Assembly: GCA_937868765.1 (NCBI GenBank)
Contig: CALMNL010000003.1
Location: 434,001-498,000, forward strand
Direction of reading: 5' to 3'
DNA length: 64,000 nucleotides
Origin: an uncultured Desulfatitalea sp.
GTDB lineage: Bacteria; Desulfobacterota; Desulfobacteria; Desulfobacterales; Desulfosarcinaceae
A program made the position numbers and the translations under genes. Positions 6,565 through 55,334 of the stretch are shown piece after piece (positions within the stretch are counted from its first letter, which is position 1; every line of letters starts with the position of its first letter). A model generated the notes under the pieces. It made no database searches and was not told the DNA's origin. It saw only the letters and a list, made by a program, of their open reading frames with translations.

Positions 6565-8490
6565 TCAGAGTTGAATTTGCGCCCCCAGCTCGACAATCCG
6601 GCTGGGGGGGATTCCAAAGTACGTCGAAGGATTGGCGGCATTGCGCGACAAGAAGGCAAAGAGCGTCTTGCGCCAGCGCATCATGGGCGACCGCCCTGTG
6701 ATCAGAAGGGTCTCGCGCCCTAAATAGAAGGTGGTCTCCAACGGTTTCAGGTCGAACCCATGCCCGGATGCCAGCTCAAGCAGCCTCGGAACATTGGGAG
6801 TCTGCATATAGCCGTAGCGCGCCACCATCCGCACAAACCCCATGGGCAACCGCTGGATATCCAAGAGCTCTTCATCCGCCACCAGCGGCACATCCGTGCT
6901 TTCGAGGGTCAATAGAATCACCTGCTCATGCAGCATCTGATTGTGCTTGATGTGATGCAACAAGGTAAAAGGGGTACCTTCGGGTGAAATGGTCAAAAAG
7001 ACCGCTGCGCCCTTGACTCTGGCTACGGTGCGTTTCTGCAAATCAGCGAGGAATTCATCCAAAGGGAACAAGCCGGAAAGCAGATGCCGCTTGACCTCGG
7101 CACGTCCCTTGATCCATGAGGTAAATATGGTTGCAATCACGCCCGCCACGACCAGGGTGATCCATCCGCCATCGAATATTTTAAATAGATTGGCGGCAAA
7201 ATAGGTCAAATCAAAGATCATGAAAAGCGCCACCGGCGGCAGCACTTTCCACAGTGGCCGCCGCCATACCCAAAGCGCAACAGCCATATACAAAAGTGAG
7301 GTCAATGCCATGGTGGCGGTCACGGCCAGGCCGTACGCACCGGCCAGTCGGCTGGAGGCCCCGAAAGAGAGTACCAGCACCAGACAGGCAACCATGAGGC
7401 CGAAGTTCACACTGGGAATATAGATCTGCCCTTTGATCTGGGCAGAGGTATGAACGATGCGCATCCGCGGACAGAATCCAAGCTGGATGGCTTGTTGGGT
7501 CAAGGAGAAGACCCCTGATATCAACGCCTGGGATGCAATCACTGTTGCCATGGTCGAAAGCAGTACCATCGGATAGAGCAGGTCAGAGGGAATCAAGCCG
7601 TAGAAGGGATGGGCGCTGGCATCCGGATGGTCAAGCAGCAGGGCGCACTGGCCGAAGTAGTTGAGCAGCAGGGCAGGGCAAGCAAGCCCGAACCAGGTCA
7701 TTTGAATCGCCCGACGACCGAAGTGCCCCAGATCAGCATATAGAGCTTCGCCGCCGGTGATGCACAACACCACCGAACCCAGCACCACGATACCGTGCAA
7801 GTGGTTGGCTTGGAAAAAGCGCCAGGCATAGATCGGGTTGAGAGAGAACAGGATATGAGGGCTTCGTACCACCTCCCAAGTGCCTGCAACCGCGATGGCC
7901 AGAAACCACAATACCATCACTGCCCCGAAGATCCTTCCAATGCCGCCGGTGCCATGCTTCTGAACGGCAAACAGCGCCACAAGCACCATACAAGTCAAAG
8001 GCACGACCCACGCCGAGGCGGCCTGAGCGGCCACTTCCAGTCCTTCGATGGCGGACAACACGGATATGGAGGGCGTGATGATGCCGTCCCCATATAGCAA
8101 GGCTGCGCCGATCAAAGCGGCCAGGACGACCATGCTGCGCACCCTGGGAGAGGGTTGTCTGGTCGCACCAAGAATCAAGCCCAACAGCGCAAAAACGCCC
8201 CCTTCCCCCCTGTTGTCGGCCTTGAGGATCAAACCGACGTACTTGATGCTCACCACGATGGTCAGGGACCAGAAGATCAGCGATGCCACGCCCAGGATAT
8301 TGACCAGGTTGAGAGCCACGGCATGCTGGCCTTTGAAACATTCGCGAACGGCATAAAGCGGGCTGGTGCCGATGTCGCCATAAACAACGCCCAGGGCGGC
8401 CAGGGTGAGGGGCATCCAATGGCCAAAGGATTGCGCACGGATGGGATCGCACGGGGCCTCTGCCCCTGCGGATGCACGGGATTCCAACAT
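6565..8490 (-). CDS. kup: Potassium uptake transporter Kup
   Basis: A 641-residue KUP/HAK/KT-family K+ importer, a proton-coupled multi-pass inner-membrane protein. The family signature GDIGTSPLYAV is at residues 38-48, followed by about 12 hydrophobic segments. A C-terminal soluble part of ~150 residues ends with the typical FYLGRETL and MMRWRKTLFAFLSRNA segments, so the length is full. It is a single gene convergent with nuoN. The 5' leader of roughly 180 nt contains a c-di-AMP riboswitch, so expression is expected to fall when c-di-AMP (a reporter of high K+) is abundant. The SD is weak (GTAGGTC), consistent with leader-controlled expression. Confidence 0.95.
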   Translation of the reverse strand: MLESRASAGAEAPCDPIRAQSFGHWMPLTLAALGVVYGDIGTSPLYAVRECFKGQHAVALNLVNILGVASLIFWSLTIVVSIKYVGLILKADNRGEGGVFALLGLILGATRQPSPRVRSMVVLAALIGAALLYGDGIITPSISVLSAIEGLEVAAQAASAWVVPLTCMVLVALFAVQKHGTGGIGRIFGAVMVLWFLAIAVAGTWEVVRSPHILFSLNPIYAWRFFQANHLHGIVVLGSVVLCITGGEALYADLGHFGRRAIQMTWFGLACPALLLNYFGQCALLLDHPDASAHPFYGLIPSDLLYPMVLLSTMATVIASQALISGVFSLTQQAIQLGFCPRMRIVHTSAQIKGQIYIPSVNFGLMVACLVLVLSFGASSRLAGAYGLAVTATMALTSLLYMAVALWVWRRPLWKVLPPVALFMIFDLTYFAANLFKIFDGGWITLVVAGVIATIFTSWIKGRAEVKRHLLSGLFPLDEFLADLQKRTVARVKGAAVFLTISPEGTPFTLLHHIKHNQMLHEQVILLTLESTDVPLVADEELLDIQRLPMGFVRMVARYGYMQTPNVPRLLELASGHGFDLKPLETTFYLGRETLLITGRSPMMRWRKTLFAFLSRNAANPSTYFGIPPSRIVELGAQIQL

Positions 8491-8544: not shown

Positions 8545-8675
8545 GTGGTTCTCCTCATCAACGCCTGCGAGGTTAGCTGACGGGATAGGGCTGAAGAGGT
8601 TGCCCTTCGCCATGATGACGATTCTCCCCGTGTTCTTGGCTCCCCCGCCCCCTGAGCCATCAGGGATTCGGCATT
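8545..8675 (-). promoter_or_regulatory. c-di-AMP riboswitch (ydaO/yuaA class) in the kup leader
   Basis: Read on the minus strand, the leader holds the conserved ydaO elements in order: GCCGAATCC (8672-8664), GGCGGGGGAGCCAA, GGGGAGAATC, GAAGGGC ... GCCCTATCCC, and the diagnostic GTCAGCTAACCTCGCAGGCG (8581-8562) followed by TGATGAGGAGAA. These match the known aptamer, where the CCGUCAGCUAACCUCG block is nearly invariant. Known members of the class turn K+ transporter genes off on c-di-AMP binding. Two small GC hairpins (CCGG-CGAAGA-CCGG and TTCGGCCGAA) between the aptamer and the kup start could be part of the expression platform. No U-tract terminator is evident, so control may be translational. 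Confidence 0.9.
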
Positions 8676-8679
8676 CGTT

Positions 8680-8708
8680 CTAATAGTGACCCCTCATAGA
8701 GATGTCAA
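8680..8708 (-). promoter_or_regulatory. Sigma70-type promoter for kup
   Basis: On the minus strand, TTGACA (8708-8703), a 17-nt spacer and TATTAG (8685-8680). It lies just upstream of the riboswitch aptamer, placing the transcript start near 8673 and giving a leader that contains the whole aptamer. Confidence 0.75.
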
Positions 8709-45481: not shown

Positions 45482-47020
45482 TCAGACGCTCTGGGCTCTT
45501 TCGGTAGGGTGGTTCTTGAGATACTCCAGCCGGTTCAGGCCGTTGATGTAGGCCAGGGCGCTGGCGGTAATGATGTCGGGGTCCGAGCCCCGACCCAGGG
45601 CCACCAGACCGTTTTCCCGCAAACGCACGGTCACTTCGCCCTGGGCGTCGGTGCCGCCGGTCAGGGCGCTGATGGAAAAGCGCAGCAGTTCGGATTCTGT
45701 GCCGGTGAGCTTGGCGATGGTATTGTAGGCGGCGTCGATGGGGCCGTTGCCGTAGCCGGCGTCTTTCACCGAGCGGCCGTTGATGGAGAGCCGCACGCTG
45801 GCCATGGGCATCACCGTCGTGCCGGCGGTCACGTGCAGGTATTCGAGCACGAAGGTCTCGGCCGTGCGCAGCACCCCCTGGGTGACGATGGCTTCCAGGT
45901 CTTCGTCCATGACATGCTTCTTCTTGTCTGCCAGCGCCTTGAACTGGGTGAAGACGGTTTGCAGTTCGTCTCCGGAAAGGTCATAACCCAGTTCCTTGAG
46001 ATGCTCGCGCAGCGCATGGCGGCCGGAGTGCTTGCCCAGGACCAGTTTAGTGGAGCTCAGACCGATGGTCTCCGGCCGCATGATCTCATAGGTCATCGGG
46101 TTTTTGAGCATGCCGTCCTGGTGGATGCCCGCCTCGTGGGCAAAGGCGTTGGCGCCCACGATGGCTTTGTTGGGCTGCACCATGATGCCGGTGATCATGC
46201 TTACCAGGCGGCTGCTGGGGTAGATCTGGTCGGTGCGGATGCGTGTGTTCAGCGGCAGGTAGTTCTGACGGGTGTGCAGGGCCATGACCACCTCTTCCAG
46301 GGAGGTGTTGCCGGCCCGTTCGCCGATGCCGTTGATGGTCACCTCGGCCTGGCGTGCGCCGGCGGCGATGGCGGCCAGGGTGTTGGCCGTGGCCAGTCCC
46401 AGGTCGTTGTGGCAATGGACGCTCAACACGGCCTTGTCCATGTTGGGCGTGTGCTGCATGACATGTTTGACCAGATCGGCGAACTCGCTGGGGATGGCAT
46501 AGCCCACCGTATCGGGCAGATTTACCGTGGTGGCTCCGGCGGCGATGGCGGTTTCGAAGGCCTGGCAGAGGAAATCGCGGTCGCTGCGCGATCCGTCTTC
46601 GGCGGAGAACTCCACGTTGGGAGTCAGGCTTTTGGCGTAGGCCACCGCGCCCTTGATCTCGGCCAGCACCTTCTCGCGGGGCATCTGCAGCTTATACTTC
46701 AAGTGGATGTCCGATGTGGCGATGAAGGTGTGGATGCGCGGTTTGGCCGCGTGCCGGATGGCGGCCCAGGCGGCGTCGATGTCGTGTTTGTTGGCGCGGG
46801 CCAGGCCGGCCACTTCCACATTCTTTAACTTGCCCGCGATCTGGGAAACCGCGTCGAAATCGCCTTCCGAAGCGGCGGGAAAACCGGCTTCGATGATGTC
46901 TACTCCCAGTTTCTCCAACTGCACGGCCAGACGTAGTTTTTCACCGGTATTCATGCTGGCGCCCGGCGATTGCTCGCCGTCGCGCAATGTCGTGTCGAAG
47001 ATTTTGACTGTATCGCTCAT
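45482..47020 (-). CDS. leuA: 2-isopropylmalate synthase
   Basis: A 512-residue enzyme joining acetyl-CoA and 2-ketoisovalerate, the first committed step of leucine synthesis. N-terminal DTTLRDGEQSPGASM, the metal HxH in VLSVHCHNDLGLATANT and NGIGERAGNTSLEEV are diagnostic. The C-terminal LeuA regulatory domain (~390-500) should give leucine feedback inhibition. It is the last gene of the operon ilvD-ilvB-ilvN-ilvC-cimA-leuA. leuB and leuCD are not in the window. The start overlaps the stop of a 35-codon ORF (see 47031-47137). Confidence 0.95.
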   Translation of the reverse strand: MSDTVKIFDTTLRDGEQSPGASMNTGEKLRLAVQLEKLGVDIIEAGFPAASEGDFDAVSQIAGKLKNVEVAGLARANKHDIDAAWAAIRHAAKPRIHTFIATSDIHLKYKLQMPREKVLAEIKGAVAYAKSLTPNVEFSAEDGSRSDRDFLCQAFETAIAAGATTVNLPDTVGYAIPSEFADLVKHVMQHTPNMDKAVLSVHCHNDLGLATANTLAAIAAGARQAEVTINGIGERAGNTSLEEVVMALHTRQNYLPLNTRIRTDQIYPSSRLVSMITGIMVQPNKAIVGANAFAHEAGIHQDGMLKNPMTYEIMRPETIGLSSTKLVLGKHSGRHALREHLKELGYDLSGDELQTVFTQFKALADKKKHVMDEDLEAIVTQGVLRTAETFVLEYLHVTAGTTVMPMASVRLSINGRSVKDAGYGNGPIDAAYNTIAKLTGTESELLRFSISALTGGTDAQGEVTVRLRENGLVALGRGSDPDIITASALAYINGLNRLEYLKNHPTERAQSV

Positions 47021-47171: not shown

Positions 47172-48761
47172 CTATCGTGGTTCCTGTCGTTTGGCCAGTT
47201 TGAATTGGAAGCTGTCGGCCAGGGCCTGCCAGCTGGCTTCGATGATATCTTCGGAGACTCCGATAGTACTCCACAGATCTTCGTGATCCCTGGATTCAAT
47301 GAAGACCCTGACCTTGGCCTTGGTGCCGTCCCGGCCATCGATGACCCGTACCTTGAAATCCACCAGGCGCATGGCTTCCAGATCGTCGGGGAAGAACTTG
47401 CCCAGGGCCTTGCGCAGCGCGTTGTCCAGGGCGCTCACCGGGCCCTGGCCCTCGGCGGCGGTAATTTCGTGCATCTCGTCCACGAGGATCTTGATGGTGG
47501 CGTGGGCTCGGCAGGGCTGATCCTTGTCCTTTTCAATGGTCACCCGAAACGATTCCAGGGCGAAGAGGGGCGTGAACTGCTCCGTGAACTTCTGCAGCAG
47601 AATCTTCATGGATCCGTCGGCCACATCGAACTGGTAGCCCTGGTCTTCCAGGGTTTTGATCTCGGCAGCGATCTTCTGGCTGTCGAAACCGTTGGCACCC
47701 AACTCGACGCCCAGTTCCTTGGCTTTGTAAATGATATTGCTGCGGCCACCCAGGTCCGAGACCAGCACCCGCCGCTTGTTGCCCACCAGGGTCGGGTCGA
47801 TATGCTCGTAAGCCTCGGGCAACTTCATGATGGCGCTGACATGCAGGCCGCCTTTGTGGGCAAAGGCGCTGCGGCCTACGAAGGGCCTGGAATTGAGCGG
47901 GACGATGTTGGCGGTTTCGCTCACGAAACGGGATACACTTTTTAACTGCTGCAAGCGTTCCCGCGGAAGGGTCTCCATTCCCATCTTGAAGCTCAGCAGC
48001 GGGATGATGGTGACCAGATCGGCATTGCCGCATCGCTCACCGTAGCCGTTGATCGTGCCTTGCACCATGGTGGCACCGCCGCGTACGGCCGCGATGCTGT
48101 TGGCCGCTGCCAGCCCGCAGTCGTTGTGCGTGTGAATCCCCAGGCGTATGGCGGGTCCGCTCAGGGTCAATGACTGCTTGACCTGGGCGACAACGCTTTC
48201 CACATCGAAGGGCAGGGAACCGCCGTTGGTATCGCACAGCACGACGGTGCCCGCGCCTGCCTGGGCCGCGGTCTTCAGCGTTTCCAGGGCGTAGGCGGGG
48301 TCCGATTTGTAGCCGTCGAAAAAATGCTCCGCATCGTACAGCACTTCACGGCCCGCATGTACCAGAAGCGCCACGCTGTCACGGATCATGGCCAGGTTTT
48401 CCTCGCGGGTGTTGCCCATGATTTGTTCTACATGCAAGGGCCATGTTTTGCCCACGATGGCCACGGCCGGGGCACGACTGGCGATGAGGGCCAGCAGATT
48501 GGGATCTTTGTCGGCTTCGGTTCTGGGTTTGCGCGTGGAGCCGAAGGCCGTGATGCGGGCGTGTGAGAAATGCTCCTGCTGCGCCATTTCGAAGAAACGG
48601 GCATCGCGGGCGTTGGAACCTGGCCAGCCGCCTTCGATATAGTGCACCCCGAACTGGTCCAGGCGCTTGGCGATCTTGATCATCTCCTCGGACGAGAAGC
48701 TGATATTTTCCCCCTGGCTGCCGTCGCGCAAGGTAGTGTCGTATATGAATACTTGGGTCAT
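47172..48761 (-). CDS. cimA: Citramalate synthase
   Basis: A 529-residue enzyme condensing acetyl-CoA and pyruvate to (R)-citramalate, entering isoleucine synthesis without threonine. Motifs are DTTLRDGSQGENISFSSEEM, VHYIEGGWPGSNARD, GIHTHNDCGLAAANSIAA and NGYGERCGNADLVTI. The C-terminal LeuA-type regulatory domain (about 400-515) points to Ile feedback. It lies between ilvC and leuA. Its presence together with the absence of threonine dehydratase nearby supports the citramalate route. Confidence 0.94.
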   Translation of the reverse strand: MTQVFIYDTTLRDGSQGENISFSSEEMIKIAKRLDQFGVHYIEGGWPGSNARDARFFEMAQQEHFSHARITAFGSTRKPRTEADKDPNLLALIASRAPAVAIVGKTWPLHVEQIMGNTREENLAMIRDSVALLVHAGREVLYDAEHFFDGYKSDPAYALETLKTAAQAGAGTVVLCDTNGGSLPFDVESVVAQVKQSLTLSGPAIRLGIHTHNDCGLAAANSIAAVRGGATMVQGTINGYGERCGNADLVTIIPLLSFKMGMETLPRERLQQLKSVSRFVSETANIVPLNSRPFVGRSAFAHKGGLHVSAIMKLPEAYEHIDPTLVGNKRRVLVSDLGGRSNIIYKAKELGVELGANGFDSQKIAAEIKTLEDQGYQFDVADGSMKILLQKFTEQFTPLFALESFRVTIEKDKDQPCRAHATIKILVDEMHEITAAEGQGPVSALDNALRKALGKFFPDDLEAMRLVDFKVRVIDGRDGTKAKVRVFIESRDHEDLWSTIGVSEDIIEASWQALADSFQFKLAKRQEPR

Positions 48762-48861: not shown

Positions 48862-49920
48862 TTACTTCTTGGCGCGATTCTCCGGGCGCAGGCTGCGTAC
48901 CGCCCGGCCGGCGCGCCACATTTCGGAGTTGCCGATCACGGCCAGCTCGGCATCGAGCTTCTGGCGATAATCCGGCGCGCTGTTGGCGGTGAGCACCCGC
49001 CGGGTTTCCGTGCCGTCCTTGACGCTCCGGTAGAGGGCATCGAACACCGGGACGACGGCTTCACGGAATTTGGGCGCCCAGTCCAGGGCCCCGCGCTGAG
49101 CCGTGGTGCTGCAGTTGGCATACATCCAGTCCATGCCGTTTTCGGCCACCAGGCGGATCAGGCTCTGGGTTAATTCTTCCACGGTTTCATTGAAGGCTTC
49201 GCTGGGGCTGTGGCCATGTTTTCGCAATAGATTGTACTGGGCCTCCATGACGCCCGCCAGGCAGCCCATGAGCACCCCGCGTTCGCCGGTGAGATCGCTG
49301 TACACTTCCTGCTCGAAGGTGGTGGGGAAGAGATATCCCGAACCGATGGCGATGCCCAGGGCGATGGTGCGCTCTTTGGCGCGACCGGTGTAGTCCTGGA
49401 AAATGGCATAGCTGGAGTTGATGCCGCTGCCGTCCAGGAAGTTCAAACGCACATTGCGACCGGAACCCTTGGGCGCCACGAGGATCACGTCGACGTTGTC
49501 CGGCGGAATGACCTTGGTCTGATCCTTATAGACAATGGAAAAGCCGTGGGAGAAGTAGAGGGCGTCCCCCGGGTTCAGACATTTCTTGACCTGGTTCCAG
49601 GTGTTCATCTGGCCGGCGTCGGAGAGCAGATACTGGATTACGGTGGCACGTTTGGCTGCCTCCTCGATGGAAAAGAGCGTCTTGCCGGGAACGAAGCCGT
49701 CGGCGATGGCCTTGTCCCAGTAGACTTTGTCGGATTCGAGCTGGCCGATGATCACCGGGAATCCGTTGTCGCGCATATTCAAAGCCTGGGCCGGGCCTTG
49801 TACGCCATATCCCAATACGGCGATGGTCTCGTTGGCCAGAACCTTGCGGGCCTTCTCCAGGGTGAACTCCTCGGATGTGATGACCTCTTCCACAACGCCG
49901 CCAAAATCGATTTTTGCCAT
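48862..49920 (-). CDS. ilvC: Ketol-acid reductoisomerase (class I)
   Basis: A 352-residue NADPH-dependent enzyme converting acetolactate or acetohydroxybutyrate to dihydroxy acids. It has the dinucleotide motif AVLGYGVQGPAQALNMRDNG, APKGSGRNVRLNFLDG, and the metal-binding EQEVYSDLTGERGVLMG and Glu-rich SPSEAFNETVEEL. SD AAAGGAG. It sits between ilvN and cimA. Confidence 0.95.
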   Translation of the reverse strand: MAKIDFGGVVEEVITSEEFTLEKARKVLANETIAVLGYGVQGPAQALNMRDNGFPVIIGQLESDKVYWDKAIADGFVPGKTLFSIEEAAKRATVIQYLLSDAGQMNTWNQVKKCLNPGDALYFSHGFSIVYKDQTKVIPPDNVDVILVAPKGSGRNVRLNFLDGSGINSSYAIFQDYTGRAKERTIALGIAIGSGYLFPTTFEQEVYSDLTGERGVLMGCLAGVMEAQYNLLRKHGHSPSEAFNETVEELTQSLIRLVAENGMDWMYANCSTTAQRGALDWAPKFREAVVPVFDALYRSVKDGTETRRVLTANSAPDYRQKLDAELAVIGNSEMWRAGRAVRSLRPENRAKK

Positions 49921-49987: not shown

Positions 49988-50485
49988 TTAAATACCTCGT
50001 TTGGGTTCGCGATACAACGCCACAGTGCCGGTGCGGGCGATTTTTTTGATGCCCATGGGCCTGAGCAAACCGATCAGGGCGGTCATTTTGTCTTCATCGC
50101 CGCTGGCTTCGATGGTGTAGTAGTTGGACGCCACGTCGATGACCTTGGCGCGGAACAGGTTGACCAGACGCAGAATCTCGTCCCGGTTTTCAGATCGCGC
50201 GTGGACGCAGATCAGGGCCATCTCCCGGCGTACGGCGCGATCGTCGGACATGTCGCGCAACTTGACCACGTTGATCAGTTTGCGCAATTGCTTCTCGATC
50301 TGTTCCAGCAACGGTTTATTGGCCTGGGTGACGATGGTGACGCGCGACACCTTGGGATCCATGGTTTCGGCGACGCACAAGCTGTCGATATTGAAGCCGC
50401 GGCCGCTGAACAATCCCACCACCCGGGAGAGCACTCCCGGCTCGTTATCCACCAGCATCGTCAACGTATGTTTTTCCGGACTCAT
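49988..50485 (-). CDS. ilvN: Acetolactate synthase small (regulatory) subunit
   Basis: A 165-residue ACT-domain protein. ACT1 (HTLTMLVDNEPGVLSRVVGLFSGRGFNIDSL, residues ~6-36) gives valine feedback on the IlvB large subunit, and a C-terminal domain (~85-160) follows. Length is standard. It follows ilvB by 41 nt. Confidence 0.94.
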   Translation of the reverse strand: MSPEKHTLTMLVDNEPGVLSRVVGLFSGRGFNIDSLCVAETMDPKVSRVTIVTQANKPLLEQIEKQLRKLINVVKLRDMSDDRAVRREMALICVHARSENRDEILRLVNLFRAKVIDVASNYYTIEASGDEDKMTALIGLLRPMGIKKIARTGTVALYREPKRGI

Positions 50486-50526: not shown

Positions 50527-52212
50527 CTAAACCAGGAGCATGTCCGTGATCGGCCGGCCGGCCGGCACCATGGGATAGACGCACTCTTCGGACTCCACGA
50601 TGAATTCCATGATCACCGGACCGGGCGTGGCCAGCCCCTTGGCCAGCACCGCCTGCACTTCGTCCGGACGAGTGGCCCGCAAGCCGGTGGCCCCGTATGC
50701 TTCGGCCAGTTTTACGAAGTCCGGGGCGTGGTCCATGATGGTTTGCGAGTAGCGCTTGTCGTAGAAAAGCTGTTGCCACTGGCGCACCATGCCCAGGCAG
50801 CGGTTGTTGAGGATCACGATCTTGACCGGCAGACCATACTGCACGGCCGTGGCCATCTCCTGGATGTTCATTTGAATGCTGCCATCGCCGGCGACGTCCA
50901 CCACCAGTTTCTCCGGAAATGCTACCTGGGCGCCGATGGCCGCGGGCAGACCGAAGCCCATGGTGCCCAGGCCGCCGGAGGTGATCCACTGCTGGGGGCG
51001 ATCGAAATGGTAGTACTGTGCAGCCCACATCTGATTCTGGCCCACCTCGGTGGCCACGATGGCTTCGCCGTTGGTCAGCTCATGAAGCTTCTCCACGACA
51101 TACTGGGGCTTGATGACATCCTTCTGCTGGTACGCCAGTTTGTATTCATCGCGCCACTGCTTGATCTGCGCGAGCCACTCGCCGTGGGGCGGCATCGACT
51201 GCTCCAGATTATCTTCCTGCACCATCTGGTTGAGGGCCGTCAGACTTATTTTGCAGTCGCCCACCACCGGCACGGTCACGGGGATGTTCTTGCGGATGGT
51301 GGTGGGATCGATGTCGATGTGTACGATCTTGGCCTGGGATGCGAACATCTCGGTCTTGCCGGTCACCCGGTCGTCGAAGCGCACTCCCACGGCGATCAGC
51401 AGGTCGCAATTGGAAATAGCCATGTTGGCCCGGTAGGTGCCGTGCATGCCCAGCATGCCCAGCCACAAGGGGTCGGAGCCGGGGAAGGCGCCCAAGCCCA
51501 TCAGCGATGCGGTGACCGGAATGCGCAGCCTGCGGGCCAGGGTGGTCAACTCTGGGGAAGCCTTGGAAAGAATTACCCCGCCGCCGGTGAATATCACCGG
51601 CCGCCGGGCGGTCTTGAGCAGAGCCACGGCTTTTTGCAGTTGCTTGGGGTTGGGCGTATAGGTCGGATTGTACGACTTGATGCTTACCTTCCCGACGGGC
51701 TGATATTCCGTCCTGGCCTGGGCCACGTTTTTGGGAATGTCCACCAGCACCGGCCCCGGTCTGCCGCTCCGGGCGATGTGAAAGGCTTCCTTCAGGCACT
51801 TGGCCAGATCTTCCACCCGGCTCACGAGATAGTTGTGCTTGGTGCAGGGCCGGGTGATGCCCACGATATCCACCTCTTGAAAGGCGTCGTTGCCAATGAG
51901 CTGGGTGGGCACCTGGCCGGTGATCACCACCATGGGGATGGAGTCCATGTAGGCCGTGGCAATGCCGGTGACCGTGTTGGTGGCGCCGGGGCCCGAGGTG
52001 ACCAGGCAGACGCCCACCTTGCCCGAAACCCGGGCGTAACCGTCGGCGGCGTGGACCGCCCCTTGTTCATGCCGGACCAGGATGTGCCGGATCTCGGCGC
52101 GCATGATCTCGTCATAGAGATCGATCACCGCGCCGCCGGGAAAACCGAAGATGGTATCCACACCTTCTTCTTTTAAAATGGTCATCAAAATTTGGGAGCC
52201 GGTAAGTTCCAT
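50527..52212 (-). CDS. ilvB: Acetolactate synthase large (catalytic) subunit
   Basis: A 561-residue ThDP-dependent enzyme making acetolactate and acetohydroxybutyrate. The catalytic Glu is in VRHEQGAVHAADGYAR, the FAD/ThDP motifs are in the middle, and the ThDP-Mg site is VDVAGDGSIQMNIQEMATAVQYGLPVKIVILNN (GDGS...NN). Second gene of the operon; its first ATG is 55 nt after the ilvD stop. The intergenic stretch carries a tiny hairpin GGCGTTG-G-CAACGCC. Confidence 0.95.
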   Translation of the reverse strand: MELTGSQILMTILKEEGVDTIFGFPGGAVIDLYDEIMRAEIRHILVRHEQGAVHAADGYARVSGKVGVCLVTSGPGATNTVTGIATAYMDSIPMVVITGQVPTQLIGNDAFQEVDIVGITRPCTKHNYLVSRVEDLAKCLKEAFHIARSGRPGPVLVDIPKNVAQARTEYQPVGKVSIKSYNPTYTPNPKQLQKAVALLKTARRPVIFTGGGVILSKASPELTTLARRLRIPVTASLMGLGAFPGSDPLWLGMLGMHGTYRANMAISNCDLLIAVGVRFDDRVTGKTEMFASQAKIVHIDIDPTTIRKNIPVTVPVVGDCKISLTALNQMVQEDNLEQSMPPHGEWLAQIKQWRDEYKLAYQQKDVIKPQYVVEKLHELTNGEAIVATEVGQNQMWAAQYYHFDRPQQWITSGGLGTMGFGLPAAIGAQVAFPEKLVVDVAGDGSIQMNIQEMATAVQYGLPVKIVILNNRCLGMVRQWQQLFYDKRYSQTIMDHAPDFVKLAEAYGATGLRATRPDEVQAVLAKGLATPGPVIMEFIVESEECVYPMVPAGRPITDMLLV

Positions 52213-52267: not shown

Positions 52268-53938
52268 TTATCTCACCACCGCACCGCAATCCGCCGAACC
52301 TACCAGTCGGGCATAGCGGGAGAGATACCCGGTCTTGATTTTCGGCTCGGGAGCGCGCCAGGCCCTGCGGCGGTTTTCCAACTGGTTTGCGTCCACCTTT
52401 AAATTGATCTGCTTGGCCGGAATATCGATGGCGATGATGTCGCCCTCCTGAACCAATGCGATGGGACCGCCCTGGGCGGCTTCCGGGGAGATGTGGCCGA
52501 TGGCCGCTCCGCGGGTGCCGCCGGAAAAGCGCCCGTCCGTGATCAGTGCCACCTGGCCATCCAACTGCATGCCGGCGATGGCCGAGGTGGGCGTGAGCAT
52601 TTCGCGCATGCCCGGACCGCCCTGAGGCCCTTCGTAGCGCACCACCACCACATCGCCGGGTTTGATTTGGCGATTCAGGATGGCCGCGGTAGCGGCGTCC
52701 TCGGAGTCAAAAACCCTTGACGGCCCCTGGTGGCGCAGCATTTCGGGGCGCACGGCGGTCTGTTTGACCACGCAACCGTTGGGTGCCAGGTTGCCATAGA
52801 GCACGGCCAGGCCGCCGGTGGCGTGGTAGGCGTTCTCCCGGGAGCGGATCACCTCGGCGTCCTTGATGCGGGCACGGACGATATTTTCGGCCACGCTTTT
52901 GCCCGTGACCGTCAGGCAGGTGCCGTCGATGTGTCCGGCTTTTTCCAACTCTTTGATAACGGCCTGGATACCGCCGGCGCGGTCTAGATCCTCGATGTGG
53001 TGGGCCCCGCCCGGACTCAGCGAACACAGATGGGGCGTCTTCTGGCTGATGATGTTGATCTGGTTCAGATCGAAGGGAACGCCCGCTTCATGGGCGATGG
53101 CCGCCAGATGTAACGTGGTATTGGTCGAACAGCCCAGGGCCATGTCCACCGCCAGGGCGTTGGCAAAGGCTTTGGGCGTCATGATCTTGCTCGGTGTGAT
53201 CTGGCGCTTCCACAATTCCATGATCTGCATGCCGGCCAGTTTGGCCAGGCGCGTGCGGGCCGACATGACGGCGGGAATCGTGCCGTTGCCCGGTAGCCCC
53301 ATACCGATGGCTTCGGTGAGACAGTTCATGGAGTTGGCAGTGAACATGCCGGCGCAGGAACCGCAGGTGGGGCAGGCGGCCTCTTCGATGTCGGCCAGCT
53401 GGCCTTCGTCCATTTGGCCGGATTTGACTGCACCCACGGCTTCGAACACCGTGATCAGATCGATCTTGGCACCCTTGGGCTGGCTGGGATGGTGGCCGGC
53501 CAGCATGGGGCCGCCGCTGACCACGATGGCAGGCAGATTCAGGCGGGCTGCGGCCATGAGCATGCCCGGCACAATTTTATCGCAGTTGGGGATCAGAACG
53601 ATGGCGTCCAGACCGTGGGCTTTGGCCATGATCTCCACCGAGTCGGCGATGATTTCGCGGCTGGCCAGGGAGTACTTCATGCCTTCGTGGTTCATGGCGA
53701 TGCCGTCGCACACACCGATGATGCCGAACTCCACAGGCGTGCCGCCGGCCATGTAGATGCCGGCCTTGACCGCTTCGGCCAGGGTATTCAGGTGGACGTG
53801 GCCGGGGATGACGGTGTTGGCCGAATTGGCGATCCCGATCAGGGGCCTTTGAATTTCGGGATCGCTGTAGCCGCAGGCTTTCATCAAGGCCCGATGGGGG
53901 GCGCGTTCGACACCTTTTTTCACTTGATCGCTCTTCAT
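52268..53938 (-). CDS. ilvD: Dihydroxy-acid dehydratase
   Basis: A 556-residue Fe-S dehydratase forming 2-keto acids for Val, Ile and Leu. Cluster Cys residues appear in [35 protein letters not shown] and [13 protein letters not shown]. The C-terminal [21 protein letters not shown] is typical. The ATG at 53938 follows GGAGGAGT; the longer open frame runs through the leader terminator and is not the real start. First structural gene after the attenuator. Confidence 0.95.
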
Positions 53939-53952
53939 GAATTTACTCCTCC

Positions 53953-53995
53953 AAAAAAAATCCGTTATCAGCCTTTGGGGCCGATAACGGATTTT
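53953..53995 (-). terminator. Attenuator terminator of the ilv operon
   Basis: On the minus strand, a 13-bp stem (AAAATCCGTTATC with GATAACGGATTTT) flanks a 13-nt GC-rich loop and runs straight into eight U residues, just before the ilvD SD. The 5' arm CCGTTATC (53990-53983) can alternatively pair with GATAATGG at the leader stop codon (54028-54021), eight pairs including one G-U. The terminator and antiterminator are therefore mutually exclusive. A ribosome at the leader stop would cover GATAATGG and let the terminator form. Confidence 0.9.
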
Positions 53996-54023
53996 GTTTT
54001 TAACGGGGGTATTGCTTAAACCA

Positions 54024-54107
54024 TTATCGTCCCCTTGGCCCAGCGTCGGCAATGACACCGAGGACGAGAATAATAAGGTTTACAATTTGAACGATGAGGC
54101 TTTTCAT
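54024..54107 (-). CDS. ilvL: ilv leader peptide (27 codons)
   Basis: A 27-residue peptide starting [18 protein letters not shown] and ending DAGPRGR. It contains five Ile, four Val and four Leu, 13 of 27 residues, as in leader peptides of attenuated branched-chain operons. Starvation for any of the three amino acids would stall the ribosome here, free the GATAATGG segment and favour the antiterminator. The stop TAA lies inside GATAATGG. No strong SD is visible. Too short for most gene callers; evidence rests on composition, position and the matching RNA structures. Confidence 0.88.
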
Positions 54108-54136
54108 AGTGGTAATCGCCAATGTTGGTTGAGCGG

Positions 54137-54165
54137 TCTTTAACAACAAGCGGTAGGGCTGTCAA
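54137..54165 (-). promoter_or_regulatory. Promoter of the ilv-cimA-leuA operon
   Basis: On the minus strand, TTGACA (54165-54160), a 17-nt spacer and TAAAGA (54142-54137), about 30 nt before the leader peptide start. The -35 is perfect and the -10 weak. Confidence 0.65.
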
Positions 54166-54314
54166 CACTTTTGTTTATTATCCGAGCATTTGGGACCGAA
54201 GGGGGTGTTGTGGATTTTTTCGGGATATGTTTTGTAATGGAAATCCGTTTTGCCCGCGTTGGTGTTGCTCTCGGTGTTCCTGCTCAAGCGATGCTTCCCC
54301 AGGAGGTGTTTTTT

Positions 54315-55334
54315 GTGACTAATTATAAGCGCACGGGTGTGTTATTTTATGGACTGTTTGTTTTCTGGTGCGTCCTGATCGGCCGGGCCCAGGGGGCGCT
54401 GGATCGAAGCCCTTTGTCCGTATCCAACCGGTTCCCCATGCATTTTATCTTTCTTTCGCCCCGGCCGGTGTCGGCGCAATTGCCCGCTGAAGGCACGATC
54501 ACGGGCGAGCTGGCACTGGACTACAGCAGCGTCTACTTCGACCGGCAAAGCGATACCTATGCCTTCCTGATGGATATGGAGGCGCTGGTGGCGGAGCTAT
54601 CGCTGACCTACAGCCTCACAGAGCGACTGGGGCTGCGGCTTCACGTGCCTATGGTCAGTATGAATTCAGGTTTTCTGGATGGTTTTCTTGAATCCTACCA
54701 TGATGCGCTGGGGGTTTCCAACTATGGGCGGGAAAACCGGCCCCACGACAACTTCGCCTATCGCCTGACAAAGGGGAGAGAGACTTGGGTGGACGGATCG
54801 ACGGGAGAGTTCGGCTGGACCGATATCACTGTATCGGTCCAGTGGGGGCTGTTTCGTGCGGGCCAAGGCCGGTGCTGGCAAAGCAGCCTGTTGGCCAGCG
54901 CCAAAGCGCCCACGGGAGATCCGGAATTCGGCTATGGCAGCGGGCGATGGGATTTCGCTCTCTTTATGCCCAATCAGTGGTCCTTCCAGCGTTGGACGCT
55001 GCACCTGATGCCGGGTCTGATCTACCATGACGATCCCGAAACCCTGGGCGCCGAGGTTTCGGCCCAAAACAGCTATAGCCTCTTCGGCGGGGCGGCATAC
55101 CATTACAACGAGCGCTGGACCTGGCTGGCCCAGCTCAATTACTTCTCTTCACCCATCGAAGATACCGGAGTGTCGCGCATCGACGATGGGGCGCTTGAGC
55201 TGGCGCTGGGCTTTCGGCGCATTTTGGCCCGGAATTGGCACCTGGCGTTCGCTTTCTGCGAAGATCCATTTACCCTGGCGGCACCTGATTTTACGGTGCA
55301 TATGGGGCTTTCCTGGGCTCCCTCGACGAAATAA
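54315..55334 (+). CDS. DUF3187-family envelope protein
   Basis: A 339-residue predicted exported protein with N-terminal MTNYKRTGVLFYGLFVFWCVLIG signal-like segment (positively charged start, hydrophobic core, then RAQGALDRSP). It is beta-rich afterwards, with aromatic, glycine-containing strands resembling outer-membrane barrel or DUF3187 proteins (TERLGLRLHVPMVSMNSGFLDGFLESYH, SLLASAKAPTGDPEFGYGSGRWD). The GTG at 54315 is preferred because CAGGAGG is 8 nt upstream; an earlier ATG-containing frame reads through the ilv promoter. Function unknown. Confidence 0.75.
   Translation: MTNYKRTGVLFYGLFVFWCVLIGRAQGALDRSPLSVSNRFPMHFIFLSPRPVSAQLPAEGTITGELALDYSSVYFDRQSDTYAFLMDMEALVAELSLTYSLTERLGLRLHVPMVSMNSGFLDGFLESYHDALGVSNYGRENRPHDNFAYRLTKGRETWVDGSTGEFGWTDITVSVQWGLFRAGQGRCWQSSLLASAKAPTGDPEFGYGSGRWDFALFMPNQWSFQRWTLHLMPGLIYHDDPETLGAEVSAQNSYSLFGGAAYHYNERWTWLAQLNYFSSPIEDTGVSRIDDGALELALGFRRILARNWHLAFAFCEDPFTLAAPDFTVHMGLSWAPSTK

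Follow-up and report, generated by a model that had tools for sequence, protein, structure and literature searches.

A predicted ribosome-mediated attenuator ahead of branched-chain amino acid operons in Desulfobacterales

The 64,000 nucleotide stretch analysed here (the window, G000:C3:434001-498000, in a genome of 5.36 Mb) carries a run of six branched-chain amino acid biosynthesis genes on its minus strand. The gene set ilvD-ilvB-ilvN-ilvC-cimA-leuA given in a preliminary description was corroborated, as each gene scored above the cut-off of its NCBIfam model:

52268-53938, minus strand: ilvD, dihydroxy-acid dehydratase (TIGR00110; ATG at 53938)
50527-52212, minus strand: ilvB, acetolactate synthase large subunit (TIGR00118)
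49988-50485, minus strand: ilvN, acetolactate synthase small subunit (TIGR00119)
48862-49920, minus strand: ilvC, ketol-acid reductoisomerase (TIGR00465)
47172-48761, minus strand: cimA, citramalate synthase (TIGR00977)
45482-47020, minus strand: leuA, 2-isopropylmalate synthase (TIGR00973)

The intergenic gaps measure, in order from ilvD to leuA, 55, 41, 67, 100 and 151 nt, and terminator-like sites are not enriched between 45300 and 54200 (8 on both strands as compared to 9.3 in shuffles), one such site with a weak tail being located in the cimA-leuA gap. Gene spacing and recurring gene order suggest that all six genes would be controlled jointly. The ribosome site of ilvD, GGAGGAG, is located at 53952-53946 on the minus strand, and the following features were assigned upstream of it, with the basis of each in brackets:

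54160-54165, minus strand: TTGACA, -35 element (sequence reading)
54137-54145, minus strand: TGTTAAAGA, extended -10 element (spacer of 17 nt to the -35 element)
54024-54107, minus strand: leader peptide ORF, 27 codons and TAA (sequence, shuffles of isoleucine, leucine and valine content, conservation at ilvD loci)
54051-54077, minus strand: main control codons, Leu-Ile-Ile-Leu-Val-Leu-(Gly)-Val-Ile (codon frequencies over 121 leaders)
54039-54068, minus strand: leader-internal hairpin, candidate RNA polymerase pause hairpin (RNAalifold consensus with double-sided changes)
54021-54032, minus strand: segment 2, GGACGATAATGG, 5′ strand of the antiterminator, overlapping the leader stop (alignment, covariation)
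53979-53990, minus strand: segment 3, CCGTTATCGGCC, common to antiterminator and terminator (alignment, covariation of both stems)
53973-53962, minus strand: segment 4, GGCTGATAACGG (sequence reading)
53953-53995, minus strand: predicted intrinsic terminator hairpin (segments 3:4) with U8, stem 53995-53957 and U8 53960-53953 (sequence, fold, covariation)

The leader ORF (54107-54024) with isoleucine, leucine or valine (I/L/V) at 13 of 27 codons, the U8 terminator and the TTGACA promoter (54165-54160) had all been proposed in the preliminary description and were confirmed in position and, for the ORF, in count, the partner of the -35 element being read as the extended -10 element. The proposal that an antiterminator forms at the leader stop was likewise confirmed, with one refinement. 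In the window the antiterminator core GATAATGG (54028-54021, minus strand) can pair with CCGTTATC (53990-53983), and the leader stop TAA (54026-54024) falls within this core; such overlap is not a fixed design across 122 leaders with a recognised core, in which the stop starts at -1 relative to the core in 67, at +2 in 8 (the window type), at +10 or +13 in 41 and elsewhere in 6, the -1 and +2 arrangements both overlapping the core. For the 210-nt leader the folding energy is -66.8 kcal/mol (z -4.6), a value equalled by none of 200 shuffles, and an ORF as rich in I/L/V as that of the window leader was absent from 5000 dinucleotide shuffles of its leader region. The terminator pattern has a single matching place in its own genome. 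A simple consensus scan listed neither the leader terminator nor the leader promoter.

On the basis of this anatomy, order-wide conservation, covariation and a folding model, we consider it very probable that the region works by ribosome-mediated transcription attenuation in response to branched-chain amino acids. Transcription would start approximately 23 nt upstream of the leader ATG, as judged from the promoter, and a ribosome would translate the leader, with the hairpin in the ORF possibly serving as an RNA polymerase pause site. When charged Ile-, Leu- or Val-tRNA is scarce the ribosome would stall on codons 4-19 and leave segment 2 (GGACGATAATGG) free to pair with segment 3 (CCGTTATCGGCC), which would prevent the terminator and allow transcription of ilvD-ilvB-ilvN-ilvC-cimA-leuA, presumably as one transcript. 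When amino acids are ample the ribosome would reach the stop inside segment 2 and cover that segment, segments 3 and 4 would pair, and transcription would end at U8. Expression would be expected to respond to amino-acid supply in this manner. The attenuation reading of the preliminary description is thus supported by the leader being present in 29 of 30 ilvD loci, by covariation of both stems with some three-way compensation, and by a folding logic that holds in 119 of 121 leaders.

Loci picked by IlvD alone provide the conservation evidence, as loci gathered by motif or covariance model conserve the leader by construction. The IlvD search covered 40 genomes including the window's own, of which 38 matched, and 30 loci were fetched, the window being the first of these (L001). 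An I/L/V-rich short ORF ending 77-136 nt upstream of ilvD was present in 29 of the 30, window included; in the exception, L029, ilvD directly follows cimA and therefore sits within an operon. The leader RNAs of L004 and L005 are identical, and 28 distinct sequences were aligned, in all of which a T-rich tract is retained after the terminator hairpin, albeit weaker in L007 and L019. Conservation of leader codons and stem pairing in relatives, on which the preliminary description had made its reading depend, was therefore found in 29 of 30 ilvD loci, with both stems covarying above shuffles by most measures.

For the antiterminator (segments 2:3), 91.3% of cells in the 28 aligned sequences are paired as compared to 87.4% in shuffles, double changes occur in 5 of 12 pairs (0 of 500 shuffles), and covariation stands at 0.112 as against 0.061 shuffled (0 of 500), while the count of pair types did not exceed shuffles, being equalled in 456 of 500. 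For the terminator (segments 3:4) the corresponding values are 92.8% paired against 86.7%, and covariation of 0.189 against 0.088 (0 of 500), with double-changed pairs (5 of 15) equalled in 56 and the pair-type count in 97 of 500 shuffles. This shuffle test makes no correction for relatedness, and the covariation rests on few positions because the stem cores hardly vary. Pairing falls to 20-62% when the partner strand is slid. The core CCGTTATC is nearly invariant, which is consistent with one strand pairing in two alternative structures. Changes are largely matched between segments 2, 3 and 4 in L007, L026 and L182, the three segments reading GGTAATGG / CCGTTACC / GGTAACGG in L007 and GATAATGA / CCATTATC / GATAATGG in L182, which has lost its outermost 2:3 pair. 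The pair type changes at positions 10 and 11 of segment 3, where the two partners agree in part: among the 78 distinct segment sets found in the 122 leaders both pairs are retained in 55 and 65, respectively. Segments 2 and 4 are near-duplicates (on average 8.9 of 12 letters alike), and the covarying hairpin within the leader ORF also appears in the RNAalifold consensus.

The consequences of ribosome position were modelled by equilibrium folding, rather than kinetics, of the nascent RNA between the ribosome edge and segment 4. From 126 distinct leaders preceding a branched-chain gene, four (L059, L070, L081 and L085) were dropped for an unrecognised core, leaving 122, and one more for density (at least 9 I/L/V in 14 codons), leaving 121. 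The model predicts that a stall at some codon allows the antiterminator to form with a probability of at least 0.5 in 120 of 121 leaders, that a ribosome at the stop keeps it below 0.5 in 120, and that both hold in 119. With ribosome edges set at 8-16 nt, stalling on the final I/L/V codon no later than codon -8 gave at least 0.5 in 119-120 of 121 leaders, as against 4, 2, 1, 1 and 0 leaders, over these edges, when the ribosome was placed at the stop. For the window, predicted stalls at codons 2-23 free the antiterminator, codon 24 is intermediate (0.4) and codon 25 onward does not free it. As stalling at almost every codon leaves the antiterminator free in the folding model, specificity would rest on codon content alone.

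Codon placement over the 121 leaders, counted from the core, agrees with an I/L/V-rich upstream half: the I/L/V frequency is 0.56-0.93 at -20 to -13, 0.65 at -12, 0.37 at -11 where Gly is common, 0.68-0.91 at -10 to -8, and at most 0.16 at -7 to -2, the core itself reading as Ile at position 0 in one frame. I/L/V codons therefore stop about 8 codons before the core, and in the model masking starts at about -4. Three reading frames relative to the core occur among the leaders, and in each of them this upstream half has retained its I/L/V codons. The density of at least 9 I/L/V in 14 codons was reached in all 120 scored leader regions as compared to 0.83% of 4800 shuffles, the best ORF being used for real and shuffled regions alike; leader-region statistics used 120, 116 or 119 of the 122 leaders, with locus ends or non-ATG starts excluded. 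In 110 of 119 leaders TTGAC is present no more than 110 nt upstream of the leader start, a count that has no shuffle control, while the pattern TTGAC-N15-TG[TC]TA occurs in 54 of 119 as compared to 0.03% in shuffles. The Shine-Dalgarno signal is weak (mean -2.6 versus -1.5 kcal/mol shuffled; -1.9 in the window), with a Shine-Dalgarno 4-mer in only 31 of 116 leaders.

A protector stem of the trp type (1:2) favours termination without translation, and is not known to be required of the ribosome-mediated attenuator class. No such stem was predicted in most leaders: ribosome-free folding led to the antiterminator in 97 of 121 leaders (probability 0.99 in the window) and fell below 0.5 in 24. The classical protector stem would accordingly be weak or absent, and the device would not be trp-like with a strong protector.

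Four other explanations were weighed against attenuation. The hairpin might be an ordinary terminator of a neighbouring or divergent transcript with an incidental short ORF, since it is nearly palindromic and the covariance model built on the leader matches the reverse strand too; the ORF, codon register and antiterminator strand are conserved together with the hairpin, however, and the neighbouring large ORF (54171-55334) runs opposite to the leader, so that no upstream gene on the leader strand needs the terminator, which renders this explanation extremely unlikely. The strong sequence conservation of the stems resembles that of an aptamer, as would befit a riboswitch or T-box sensing a metabolite or uncharged tRNA directly and without translation, yet no Rfam family reached its gathering threshold at the leader locus or in 20 relatives, a relaxed search of the leader locus returned only three microRNA models, the invariant alignment columns fall mostly in the switching stems and the I/L/V codons upstream are kept in three frames; direct sensing is hence highly improbable.

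That the leader might instead encode a functional small hydrophobic protein, with attenuation minor or absent, is suggested by the strong hydrophobicity of the leader peptides, and is extremely improbable given that their sequence and length vary widely, that the last codons shift in frame and sequence while the RNA core is constant, and that composition varies with the operon products. An action mainly through translation or Rho access, and not through intrinsic termination, would be compatible with leaders that have no protector stem, but the hairpin and T-rich tract retained in the 28 aligned loci, and an ilvD ribosome site outside the stems, make it very unlikely. The attenuation reading is followed below.

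A covariance model was built from the 28 aligned sequences and applied with a threshold of E≤1e-3. Within the order 261 of 291 genomes gave a match, a count that takes in the own genome and most of the training genomes, as did 172 of the 183 of good quality; in a phylum-wide sample it matched 25 of 297 genomes, 10 of them in the order (own included) and 15 outside. A match elsewhere in the own genome (G000:C4, E 0.63) was taken as chance, none of the six genes following it within the stored stretch. An exact pattern was found in 91 stretches of a species-genome collection, and the 80 of these matches listed were all named as deltaproteobacteria, mostly Desulfobacterales, except for one (L169) named only as Proteobacteria. 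The 120 loci L062-L181, 10 of which have no pattern match and a few of which are the same place twice, hold 120 pattern matches: 71 precede ilvD, 18 ilvB, 12 cimA and 6 leuA, while 13 have no gene of the six downstream, 10 of them lying on the reverse strand of a gene-bearing match and 3 within 170 nt of a stretch end. Of the 30 genomes of the order in which the model found no match, 20 were searched for ilvD and 10 of these had no match. In two others (L229 and L230) ilvD directly follows cimA, as in L029, so that the operon head and any leader should be further upstream; one locus (L228) is truncated by a contig end with a terminator-like remnant present, and in another (L232, 47% identity) no such leader was found upstream of ilvD. 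In L195 (G036) and L121 such a leader precedes an ilvB-like gene 45-46% identical to the window ilvB, perhaps a divergent or second acetolactate synthase.

The leader RNA is thus found before ilvD, ilvB, cimA or leuA operons, and its codon content appears mostly to follow the products of the operon downstream. Among 151 distinct leaders, which are related and not independent sequences and whose classes were formed after the leaders had been seen, I, L and V account for 41, 33 and 26% in ilvD/ilvB leaders (127, of which 125 pass the density cut), 22, 52 and 26% in leuA leaders (9), 41, 39 and 20% in cimA leaders where leuA was not seen (12) and 27, 50 and 23% in cimA leaders where it was (3). 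In the control window from -20 to -8, the 15 cimA/leuA leaders hold 90 L, 47 V and 9 I, and the 107 ilv leaders 387 I, 368 L and 323 V. Many cimA loci ended too soon and therefore 12 operons were extended to about 6 kb and compared with three fetched earlier. Lone cimA (L217, L210) and cimA-leuC-leuD-leuB without leuA (L216), where LeuCDB would serve the citramalate route, are headed by leaders dominated by Ile, with no more than one Leu and one Val. In all seven cimA-leuA operons (L215, L218, L219, L221-L224), four of which continue into ilvB or ilvD, a cluster of Ile, or of Ile and Val, comes first in the leader and a Leu cluster after it. The leader of cimA-ilvD-ilvB-ilvN (L225) has I9 L4 V5, those of leuA-leuC-leuD-ilvB-ilvN (L226, L227) I4 L4 V7, and that of L208, with a leuA-like gene downstream and none of the other genes after it, I1 L10 V2. 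L220 (I10 L4 V3; cimA, with no leuA within approximately 4 kb) is a partial misfit to the codon rule, this locus (L077/L220) having Leu and Val codons ahead of cimA with leuA not seen.

Leaders that coexist in one genome were compared in 13 genomes with at least two covariance-model matches, 10 of which carry two or three such leaders ahead of genes of the branched-chain pathway. The copies show no clear difference in composition in three genomes (G067, G036 and G030) and differ in seven (G139, G235, G259, G288, G097, G324 and G463). In G139, G235, G259 and G288 one leader precedes ilvD (e.g. INSLVVLIIIVEVIIV; ilvD-ilvB-ilvN-cimA follow in G139) and one a leuA-like gene (e.g. SRLLVLLLIEEVVL). 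From leader hairpin to U tract the paired copies match at 83-85 of 108 positions, and in the codon part before the hairpin at 25-33 of 44-47, with ATT in one copy and CTT in the other. The activity of the leuA-like protein is uncertain, since its best matches are 2-isopropylmalate synthase models below their cut-offs (323 versus 532 bits) and these four genomes gave no match above the TIGR00973 cut-off while containing further LeuA-family frames. Two LeuA-family frames have one internal TAA (G259:C1:4564862-4565986 and G288:C6:2504152-2505300). Of the three leaders of G097, the one ahead of ilvD-ilvB-ilvN-ilvC and leuA is V/L/I in content, that of a lone ilvB is Ile-rich and that of a lone cimA Ile-only. 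Since operons that differ in their products share this RNA, evolution seems to have carried out a codon-swap experiment of its own. The broader proposal would be that one sequence-frozen attenuator scaffold spread by copying from one branched-chain operon to another across Desulfobacterota and was retuned by single codon-base swaps (ATT Ile, CTT Leu), with paralogues in one genome sensing different amino acids and, for want of a protector stem, with readthrough as the default state of an untranslated leader; we regard the arguments for and against this proposal as evenly balanced.

Ribosome-mediated transcription attenuation is a textbook mechanism class, and the case of apparent codon retuning seen here is unusually clear. 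Vitreschak 2004 and Lopatovskaya 2010 are, by their titles, said to be comparative-genomic surveys of proteobacterial amino-acid attenuators, and no Desulfobacterota description was recognised in the literature searched, which did not cover these two. The E. coli and Salmonella ilvGMEDA, ilvBN and leu attenuators resemble the present leader in having a product-rich leader peptide, mutually exclusive antiterminator and terminator, and the ribosome as sensor, whereas here the stop falls within or next to the antiterminator strand, segments 2 and 4 nearly duplicate each other, the protector stem is mostly unpredicted and the window gene run includes cimA and leuA. These operons, ilvGMEDA with its leader ilvL included, are named as attenuated in PMC1183508.

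According to PMC10272879, attenuation is supported for ilvB-II, the leader of Corynebacterium ilvBNC, and suggested for the ilvB-OMG motif, both of which, by description, share with the present leader an ORF ahead of ilv genes in which branched-chain codons are plentiful; ilvB-II is from Corynebacterium, and the Rfam release in which no match was found may not include either family. PMC1262725 deals with leader peptides of ilvB in actinobacteria and with the LEU element of leuA, for which the exact mode is left open or mutations behave unlike attenuation; these are similar in that runs of I/V/L or Leu codons lie ahead of ilvB or leuA, while in the present leader both stems are present and covary. 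The leader is not described in the available parts of PMC10272879, PMC1262725, PMC2965389, PMC11109978, PMC3766115, PMC2864571 and PMC4833913. Desulfobacterales thereby gain a testable rule for the control of isoleucine, valine and leucine synthesis through a short leader gene that may escape automated annotation, the covariance model is a possible new RNA family, and a comparison of the paralogous leaders of one genome would reveal how far codon content alone sets attenuator specificity.

Two further RNA elements were encountered. In another genome of the order a Tyr-rich leader (FFYYYYYWYP; L200, minus strand) followed by a strong hairpin and T run precedes an ORF (420-1457, starting MIIVMKSK) that is probably DAHP synthase; it was rejected as a member of the branched-chain leader family on account of that peptide and the DAHP synthase-like ORF, and is apparently an aromatic amino-acid attenuator. 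In the window itself the only Rfam match is a c-di-AMP riboswitch (RF00379, 92 bits) at 8547-8683 on the minus strand, immediately upstream of a 641-aa ORF (6565-8490) that resembles a Kup potassium transporter.
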